DNA of 64,000 nucleotides from Serratia sp. FDAARGOS_506 (GTDB taxonomy: Bacteria > Pseudomonadota > Gammaproteobacteria > Enterobacterales > Enterobacteriaceae): NCBI RefSeq assembly GCF_003812745.1, contig NZ_CP033831.1:1612001-1676000 (forward strand), in the 5' to 3' direction. Made by a program: the position numbers and the translations under genes. Positions within the stretch are counted from its first letter, which is position 1, and every line of letters starts with the position of its first letter. Under the pieces are notes generated by a model. The model was not told the DNA's origin and made no database searches. It was given only the letters and a program-made list of their open reading frames with translations. Below are positions 46 through 52,421 of this stretch, one piece after another.

Positions 46-59
46 GATGCGCCCCGCAT

Positions 60-136
60 CGGCGAGTAGCGCAGCTTGGTAGCGCAACTGGTTTGGGACC
101 AGTGGGTCGGAGGTTCGAATCCTCTCTCGCCGACCA
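60..136 (+). tRNA. tRNA-Pro (anticodon TGG), first copy
   Basis: This is a complete 77-base cloverleaf ending in an encoded CCA. The anticodon loop TTTGGGA sits between the stem arms ACTGG and CCAGT and gives anticodon TGG. The sequence is identical to the tRNA-Pro at 51695-51771. It starts only 14 bases after the preceding stop codon, so a promoter would have to lie inside that gene or the tRNA is co-transcribed with it. In E. coli the corresponding place next to dppA holds proK with anticodon CGG, so this copy is proM-like in sequence but proK-like in position. Confidence 0.97.
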
Positions 137-142
137 CATTCG

Positions 143-172
143 AAAAACCTGCTTTTAAAGCAGGTTTTTTTT
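143..172 (+). terminator. Rho-independent terminator after tRNA-Pro, first unit
   Basis: The inverted repeat AAAAACCTGC ... GCAGGTTTTT lies 6 bases after the tRNA CCA and runs into eight T residues. The same hairpin occurs at 306-335 in the second repeat unit. Confidence 0.85.
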
Positions 173-305
173 CGCCCGTCGTTTATGAGGATGAGTACCT
201 CCGCAGGAGGTTCGAGCCTCGCGGAGCGAGACAACGTTGCTTTAGCAACGGCCCGTAGGGCGCGCATCAGAGATGCGCGTAATCCTCTCTCGCCGACCAC
301 ATTCG

Positions 306-335
306 AAAAACCTGCTTTTAAAGCAGGTTTTTTTT
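306..335 (+). terminator. Rho-independent terminator, second repeat unit
   Basis: This is an exact copy of the hairpin and T-run at 143-172, shifted by 163 bases. It would end any transcript that reads through the first terminator, so the repeated unit would be bounded as a discrete RNA. Confidence 0.8.
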
Positions 336-364
336 CGCCCGTCGTTTATGAGAATGAGTGCCTC

Positions 365-2415
<2,051 letters not shown>

Positions 2416-34041: not shown

Positions 34042-34172
34042 AGTGTGGTAGAATATCAGCTAACTATTGCTTTACGAAAGCACATCCGTTGAAATAAACG
34101 CGGTGCAATAAAATCACCTTGAGTTGGTTAATGCTACACCAACAAGGTAGACATAATCCTGTGGAGTAGAAC

Positions 34173-34499
34173 ATGAGCGATAAAATTATTCACCTGACTG
34201 ACAGCAGCTTCGAAGCCGATGTGCTGAAAGCGGAAGGGCCGATCCTGGTCGATTTCTGGGCTGAATGGTGTGGGCCGTGCAAGATGATTGCTCCGATTCT
34301 GGATGAGGTTGCCGAAGAGTTCGAAGGCAAACTGACCATCACCAAGCTGAATATCGATCAGAACCCGGCTACCGCGCCCAAGTACGGTATCCGTGGCATC
34401 CCTACGCTGTTGCTGTTCAAGAACGGTGAAGTGGCCGCGACCAAGGTTGGCGCGTTGTCCAAAGGTCAGCTCAAAGATTTCCTGAACGCGAATCTGTAA
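34173..34499 (+). CDS. trxA: Thioredoxin 1
   Basis: This is a general cytosolic disulfide reductant, recycled by thioredoxin reductase. Its 108 residues carry the active site WCGPC in [14 protein letters not shown] and the cis-proline loop [13 protein letters not shown] at 34163-34166 lies 6 bases before the ATG. It is transcribed between divergent rhlB and downstream rho, with a hairpin at 34520-34561. Confidence 0.98.
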
Positions 34500-51694: not shown

Positions 51695-51771
51695 CGGCGA
51701 GTAGCGCAGCTTGGTAGCGCAACTGGTTTGGGACCAGTGGGTCGGAGGTTCGAATCCTCTCTCGCCGACCA
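51695..51771 (+). tRNA. proM: tRNA-Pro (anticodon TGG), second copy
   Basis: A 77-base tRNA identical to the copy at 60-136. It is fourth in the argX-hisR-leuT-proM order, where E. coli also has proM. The wobble uridine can read all four proline codons when modified. Confidence 0.98.
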
Positions 51772-51781
51772 CTTTCAAAGA

Positions 51782-51804
51782 AACCGACGCAAGTCGGTTT
51801 TTTT
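51782..51804 (+). terminator. tRNA operon terminator, first
   Basis: AACCGAC-GCAA-GTCGGTT with a T-run, 10 bases after the proM CCA. Confidence 0.88.
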
Positions 51805-51813
51805 ACGTCTGCA

Positions 51814-51856
51814 GTTTATGAGGATGAGCACCTCCGCAGGAGATTCGAGCCTCGCG
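51814..51856 (+). repeat. Second copy of the sequence found after the first tRNA-Pro
   Basis: These 43 bases match 181-223 with only two differences. They contain CCTCCGCAGGAG and the ATTCGAGCCTCGCG segment. In both loci the sequence lies directly after the tRNA terminator. The second repeat unit seen at 281 is absent here. Confidence 0.85.
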
Positions 51857-51875
51857 ACGTGAAATGAACATCGAC

Positions 51876-52214: not shown

Positions 52215-52421
52215 GTAGATGCTCATTCCACCTCTTATGTTCGCCTTAGGCCTCATAAACCCTGGGAATGACGCAGAGCCGATTTAGGGTGCCTATCGCC
52301 CACGAGAACGATGACTAACCCGTCATCACGCTCAGGGCAGAACGTTGAGTGAGGCACCGCCCCTGTTGTCCTAGACCTGATTGCTTCTTTATACACTTGC
52401 CACACGGCAAGTGTTTTTTTT
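52215..52421 (+). ncRNA. glmZ: GlmZ small RNA
   Basis: GlmZ with Hfq activates glmS translation, which makes glucosamine-6-phosphate for cell-envelope sugars. It is destroyed by RNase E guided by RapZ unless the decoy GlmY is present. The 5' part (GTAGATGCTCATTCCA, CTCTTATGTTCGCCTTA, GAATGACGCAGAGCCG) and the later AACGTTGAGTGA match E. coli GlmZ as I remember it. The length of about 207 bases is the same. It ends in an intrinsic terminator (52394-52421). The location immediately next to hemY is conserved, although E. coli has aslA and aslB on the other side. Confidence 0.9.

Follow-up and report, generated by a model that had tools for sequence, protein, structure and literature searches.

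The tRNA-Pro(UGG) gene near the start of the window (the whole stretch of 64,000 nucleotides that was analysed) is followed by a hairpin-rich repeat, and this raises the question of what the repeat is and how it might work. The first-pass annotation had proposed that the last 19 bases of the tRNA, its terminator and the sequence behind it recur 163 bases downstream. Our comparison bears this out. A direct repeat of 85 bases with 98% identity joins 118-202 to 281-365 at a spacing of exactly 163, and it comprises the last 19 tRNA bases, the terminator hairpin and about 30 more bases. The two copies of the tRNA end (118-136 and 281-299) agree at 19 of 19 positions, which is the hallmark of tRNA-linked repeats (TLRs). 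As in TLRs, the unit lies directly 3' of its tRNA gene and on the same strand. The tandem repetition involves the unit as a whole (1 + ~0.2 units), more than a tRNA remnant, and the unit sits between two terminators (142-170 and 305-333), as do the repeats of the RrA/B/F type. A simple terminator scan listed neither of these terminators, and both rest on the repeats, the folds and manual reading; we think that the scan missed them because the A and U tracts are taken up in the paired stem. The c strand of the possible first hairpin repeats the 5' strand of the tRNA-Pro T stem and continues into TTCGA (211-215). The features are collected in Table 1.

Table 1. Features of the repeat that follows tRNA-Pro(UGG), in window positions
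Feature	Position	Strand	Basis
tRNA-Pro(UGG) gene	60..136	+	ARAGORN (tgg anticodon); Rfam tRNA 65.8 bits
Final 19 tRNA bases, copy 1 of the repeated block	118..136	+	Repeat comparison
Intrinsic terminator 1, 13-bp hairpin with U tract	142..170	+	Inverted repeat; fold -15.2 kcal/mol
Complete TLR / RtT unit, 163 bases	137..299	+	Repeat spacing 163; Rfam RF00391 at 171-299
Left arm a (GAGGAT), partner 282-287, closes the unit	187..192	+	MFE fold; 25-unit alignment
Possible hairpin b:c, CCTCC-GCA-GGAGG	198..210	+	Sequence; 25-unit alignment; absent from MFE fold
Possible core hairpin 2	218..230	+	Sequence; absent from the window's MFE fold
Core hairpin 3	235..250	+	MFE fold; 25-unit alignment
Core hairpin 4	251..261	+	MFE fold; 25-unit alignment
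Core hairpin 5, compensatory changes at two pairs	262..278	+	MFE fold; 25-unit alignment
Segment d, last 19 bases of tRNA-Pro, copy 2; 3' end of the unit	281..299	+	
Terminator 2, identical to terminator 1	305..333	+	Fold -15.2 kcal/mol
Trailing partial unit, arms a and b only	334..365	+	Direct repeat

The Rfam model of RtT RNA (RF00391) matches 171-299 over its full length (model positions 1-130) with 71.9 bits against a cut-off of 45 and E = 3.7e-12 in a scan of the 64-kb window. The near-identical 85-base repeat together with this match is not a chance event. Since the Rfam cut-off is passed and the TLR hallmark is present, the unit belongs with the same RNA family as the rtT of E. coli and is no parallel invention. 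Judged by its sequence and structure, the focal unit is a member of the TLR/RtT RNA family. The first-pass annotation had left the choice between a recurrent mechanism and a related RNA; it is the related RNA that proved right. It had also noted the same 19-base remnant as in tyrT. The length of 19 is indeed shared, but the sequence differs and each unit copies its own tRNA. The same Rfam scan of the window gave matches above cut-off to the GlmZ/SraJ sRNA (52215-52420) and to the trxA 5' UTR thermometer (34115-34202).

The passages of PMC8144298 on which we draw describe TLRs as first reported in 1978 and still without a known function, with 22 TLRs at ten loci in E. coli K-12 and a 3' end of 18-19 bp identical to the end of the upstream tRNA or rRNA. 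The role in amino-acid starvation that was attributed to rtT in 1991 was later withdrawn, and deletion and overexpression of the best-studied TLRs had only modest effects (PMC8144298). Three TLRs lie in rRNA operons between dual terminators; they arise by read-through, undergo processing and bind Hfq as well as CsrA, and terminator T1 of rrnB is 87% efficient (PMC8144298). In the same source the copied end is suggested as an RNase E processing signal, and CsrA binding is predicted for RrA/B/F and not for the 19 tRNA-linked TLRs.

Against this background the focal unit differs little from its relatives. It shares the 18-19 bp tRNA end, the downstream position on the same strand and the tandem copies with the E. 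coli TLRs, and there is no difference in kind. With the RttR of E. coli tyrT it shares a closing helix, core hairpins, the 19-base tRNA end and a trailing partial unit, and the tyrT array of "3.14" units is likewise a tandem of whole units. The tRNA is Tyr in the one case and Pro in the other, the closing helix has 10 bp in tyrT RttR and 6 in the focal unit, and the focal locus has a terminator between tRNA and unit. The layout at K-12 proK, tRNA-Pro(CGG), is the same as at the focal locus. RrA, RrB and RrF of rrnA, rrnB and rrnD also lie between two terminators, and for them expression by read-through has been published; however, they copy the end of 5S rRNA where the focal unit copies that of a tRNA, and in rrnB we saw no complementary left arm by eye. 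Within rrnB (L112:1018-1128), GAGTAGGA precedes the core of the 5S-linked repeat and resembles GAGTAGGGA before the last 5S bases, a plan that recurs in the tRNA-linked units, where TTCGA stands ahead of the core.

RtT units beside tRNA-Pro are already annotated in E. coli and Salmonella records, and the first-pass annotation therefore overestimated the novelty of the locus. The Salmonella unit is 74.3% identical to window 118-300, in a record with two annotated units, and a 175-bp rtT length polymorphism is listed for Salmonella (PMC2658671). In E. coli 5A, the unit beside tRNA-Pro (76.5% identity to the same stretch) is a single annotated unit at the eptB-dppA site. When window 118-300 was used as the query, 25 of 40 E. 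coli annotation rows, drawn evenly down the match ranking, read "RtT sRNA | tRNA-Pro". Matches to this stretch were found in 3842 of 5426 E. coli genomes, with at least 80% coverage in 2656. The repeat linked to tRNA-Pro at proK (L124:1345-1617) has no annotated feature in the K-12 RefSeq record NC_000913, and in E. coli 5A the unit at the equivalent place is called "rtT sRNA, processed from tyrT transcript". That RefSeq note is misleading at other tRNAs. In E. coli 2014C-3338 (L122:1-821) an IS3-family transposase gene ends directly at an RtT unit, and a tRNA-Pro is not annotated within the stretch shown.

A protamine-like tpr peptide has been associated with RtT, and we considered it as the encoded product and rejected it. 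The frame that opens at the conserved ATGAG varies from 5 to 100 codons (54 of 99 anchored units have the ATG). It has 5, 9 and 29 codons in the K-12 tyrT units; among 29 Pro units it stays open past the tRNA end in 18 and stops inside the unit in 11. The frame is not kept in the focal unit, and it is not counted here as a defining feature of RtT.

Units of this family are not confined to proline. The first-pass annotation had asked whether the unit always abuts tRNA-Pro; it does not, and units follow Ser, Lys, Tyr, Arg, Pro, Glu and Gln tRNAs. In the genome that contains the window, RtT matches number 23 at E <= 10; of these, 17 reach E <= 0.001 and 11 pass the cut-off. The upstream tRNAs are Tyr, Pro(GGG), Pro(UGG), Lys, Ser and Arg for the 17, and a Phe tRNA for three weaker matches. 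Among 148 genomes drawn from the order, 28 carry matches at E <= 0.001 (94 in total). When these were placed in their surrounding DNA, 89 had an upstream tRNA on the same strand and five had none in the sequence examined. Allowing at most 2 mismatches in 18, 70 of the 89 end in a copy of the end of the nearest upstream tRNA and 72 in a copy of some upstream tRNA's end (28 genomes in both cases); in the other 17 a good tRNA end is mutated or missing. All 72 copies fit their own tRNA strictly better than the tails of other amino-acid families in the set, which have 3-7 mismatches. The set of units leans towards Tyr-like ones because the 3' end of the search model is Tyr-like. One tRNA-Lys-linked unit (L063:1650-1770) has tRNA-Lys sequence from the anticodon arm up to the T loop, followed by the hairpin core and then by the tRNA end, as if the core had been inserted into the T loop of a tRNA. 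A unit that lacks the core between its T-loop side and its tRNA end occurs at the tRNA-Pro locus of a related species (L097), where GGAGGTTTGAG adjoins TCTCGCCGACCA.

Such breadth bears on the idea that the repeat is left over from the integration of an element at the 3' end of the tRNA, at an attachment site of the T-loop class. T-loop integration sites run from the T loop to the CCA. The repeated block has this very span, and on manual reading the core occupies the point at which the T loop would be cleaved. However, the same family of cores follows seven amino-acid types of tRNA, and it is also found behind 5S rRNA, both here and in the published set (PMC8144298). The first-pass annotation judged the spacing too small, and rightly so, as 163 bases hold no integrase or element. 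In E. coli genomes, every one of the 13,486 places that match is on the chromosome. Core likeness, compared over 34 cores, adds to this. Cores that follow the same amino acid in different genomes have a likeness of 0.676, while cores of different tRNAs are hardly more alike within one genome (0.597, 27 pairs) than between genomes (0.582, 424 pairs). An integration remnant is accordingly the explanation to which we give next to no credence. The pattern of core likeness suggests old, vertically kept units and speaks against recent jumping. A mobile element was rejected together with this pattern, and there were few matches in phages and plasmids: the phage collection gave three records, namely two Salmonella contigs of >500 kb from whole-genome sequences and a 7.4-kb phage record that carries no annotation, and the plasmid collection gave nine, from 24.8 kb to chromosome size and all called non-mobilizable.

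The RNA that such a unit would yield is predicted to be rich in hairpins. In the minimum free energy (MFE) fold of 171-299 (z = -2.98), the closing helix of the RtT family (6 bp, 187-192 with 282-287) and the last three hairpins form. In place of the hairpins 198-210 and 218-230, the MFE fold has 198-204 paired with 221-228 in a nested arrangement around 207-220; the fold with all hairpins as drawn reaches -47.5 against -54.7 for the MFE fold and is 7.2 kcal/mol less stable. The first-pass annotation had described four hairpins between the copies. All four can form and three are in the MFE fold, but 218-230 is not. The z values of five hand-chosen units that were folded ranged from -2.98 (window) to -4.72. 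The prediction for the unit is a loop of hairpins, held shut by pairing of the left arm with the copy of the tRNA end; this closing helix is already part of the RtT model in Rfam.

Conservation of this fold was examined in 25 of the 27 available Pro(tgg) units; 20 of these belong to the genus of the window and five to other genera. Over these units 93.7% of the pair cells hold, with 95.3% for the closing helix, 100% for b:c, 100% for hairpin 3, 99% for hairpin 4 and 92% for hairpin 5. In a separate count, c is GGAGG in 25 of the 25 Pro(tgg) units in which it was located. The first-pass annotation had named a lack of hairpin conservation in other Serratia among the findings that would reduce the repeat to a chance duplication; the hairpins are conserved to this extent, the hairpin 218-230 being found as drawn in only 10 of 25 units and with a variant 5' strand in 15. 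Few pairs vary in this Pro-only set, where the covariation score was 0.028 and one slid version scored higher (0.033). RNAalifold run on the Pro(tgg) units paired core hairpin 2 with the tRNA end in place of the closing helix.

A broader set consisted of 27 units of the long form after varied tRNAs, chosen by hand from 68 one-per-locus units; it leaves out Arg, short Lys, Glu, most Pro(tgg), near duplicates and the long units L026, L041, L047 and L061. For this hand-picked set RNAalifold found the closing helix unaided. The closing helix and b:c together had 90.1% of their cells paired and a covariation score of 0.468, against 0.213 when shuffled and at most 0.270 when slid, and all slid versions scored lower. 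In the closing helix, five of seven pairs changed on both sides. Three of five measures (cells paired, cells changed on both sides, covariation score) exceeded all 500 shuffles, in which kinship among the units was not removed. The other two did not stand out: seven pairs changed on both sides against 5.8 (reached in 62 of 500 shuffles), and there were 18 pair types against 16.9 (reached in 162 of 500). An alternative T-arm pairing of c with d covaries as well (79.1% of cells, 0.276), less strongly than the closing helix, so that a switch between two folds is possible.

Comparison over several tRNAs showed that the left arm is complementary to the copied tRNA end and changes with the tRNA. The arm is GGGGAAGGAT in Tyr units, TCGTGCAGGAT in one Lys unit and GGGAGGAT in Arg units. 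Even among Tyr units the two move together: tRNA CCAGC goes with arm GCTGG in L039 and L042, and CCTTC with GAAGG in the others. In an unanchored test, the arm's own tRNA family was strictly the best fit in 33 of 114 units; this test is noisy, as hairpins pair with many tails. The anchored tests left out five Ala rows of the 114 and then ten of the remaining 109 that lacked the anchor motif, both Phe units included. In the first of them the own family was best in 38 of 99 units, with a one-per-locus mean of 4.19 against 3.46. Since the Ser arms lacked one base in that test, a one-base shift was added for all tails alike, with G-T counted as half, and the own family was then best in 52 of 99. 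Over 68 loci the arm fits its own tRNA end with a mean of 4.41, against 3.77 when tRNA ends were dealt out at random, and none of 5000 shuffles reached the observed value. Over 19 distinct tRNA ends the figures were 4.95 and 3.94, again with 0 of 5000, in a shuffle in which relatedness stays. The T-stem copy c before TTCGA likewise fits its own tRNA better (4.11 of 5 against 3.43, 55 units). Descent alone would not produce an inverted match that tracks the tRNA.

The focal locus is the poorest place to see this rule. The arm of the focal Pro(UGG) unit covers the T stem and its loop only in part, and at the seven tRNA-specific positions the Pro(tgg) arms fitted their own tRNA no better than others (2.81 against 3.02, 27 units). 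It is the stretch c that resembles the tRNA in the focal Pro(UGG) units. We did not find the left-arm rule stated in the literature searched, of which the sources cited here were covered in part; Egan and Landy 1978, Bosl and Kersten 1991/1994 and Rudd 1999 lie outside the scope of that search, so its absence from them cannot be claimed.

The arm could also act as an antisense to the tRNA itself, with the copied end as a competing partner that frees the tRNA. The arm fits the T and acceptor 3' strands of the tRNA, and since d repeats those strands, the data fit pairing of the arm with either. We regard this as improbable, given that the tRNA upstream of the arm will already have folded, that in the window a terminator separates the two and that the Pro(tgg) arm is short.

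A less elaborate explanation is that the unit is a functionless tandem duplication, in which an ancient copied tRNA end and its hairpins are maintained by recombination and the RNA has no selected role. The window has an ORF of 563 aa (724-2415) that is, by its resemblance, a putative chitinase A. Of 30 loci in the genus (one per genome, the window's included), the flank on the ChiA side could be located at 17; the other 13, which were uncounted, lie at another site, at contig ends or are too diverged. Complete units numbered zero at four of the 17 loci, one at ten and two at three. The four loci that do without a complete unit, the truncated and decayed units that occur, the modest phenotypes of TLR deletions and the withdrawal of the 1991 phenotype (PMC8144298) all speak for such a duplication. 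However, the match of the arm is inverted and not direct, and it tracks the tRNA; duplication alone gives no such match. We consider this explanation unlikely, yet it is one to be taken seriously. A truncated unit is also present in the window. A second tRNA-Pro(UGG) gene (51695..51771, + strand) is the last of an Arg-His-Leu-Pro tRNA cluster, and it is followed at 51777..51857 (+) by a terminator and a truncated RtT unit, in which the second tRNA end was not seen. This region matches window 58-223 at 89%, and the end of the truncated unit was placed by eye. Other genomes of the genus have full units behind a second tRNA-Pro(UGG) site, which may be the same locus as 51695-51857.

It is also conceivable that the unit works only as DNA or as a terminator, in the manner of a BIME-like double terminator by which the tRNA would be shielded from the genes behind it. 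The unit has a strong terminator on either side, BIME-associated relatives of rtT have been proposed as attenuators (PMC2965389), and on manual reading the K-12 proK array continues into a BIME-like stretch. Nevertheless, a double terminator would have no need of a tRNA end or of an arm that fits it, and by eye the Tyr, Arg and some Lys units lie in tRNA operons without an intervening terminator. This makes a purely terminator-level role very unlikely.

The reading that we prefer, with a probability of roughly 0.55, is that a read-through transcript gives rise to a small RNA that is closed by the arm helix and trimmed at its tRNA-like CCA end. The first terminator (142-170) is predicted to be strong, and most transcripts should stop before the unit. 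RNA polymerase would occasionally pass it and produce an RNA of several hairpins; the left arm would fold onto the copied tRNA 3' end and close the RNA; and the machinery that processes tRNA 3' ends would act on the copied end and release an RNA that finishes in CCA. For the RttR of K-12, the annotated end falls exactly at the CCA. The hairpin core would be the payload, and recombination between tandem copies could let arrays grow and shrink.

The focal locus itself adds one ordinary member to the TLRs. What the comparison over several tRNAs suggests beyond it is a rule, namely that the left arm matches the copied tRNA end, and with this rule the question of function becomes testable by mutation at one locus. 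A bolder proposal is that throughout the order the left arms of TLRs are fitted to the T and acceptor 3' strands of their own tRNA and follow its changes, which would make TLRs tRNA-addressed RNAs. We put this forward as a doubtful, rather speculative idea, and the focal Pro(UGG) units are its weakest case. If it were true, the family would combine a shared hairpin core with an interchangeable address, and the cell could act on single tRNA genes, or sense their output.
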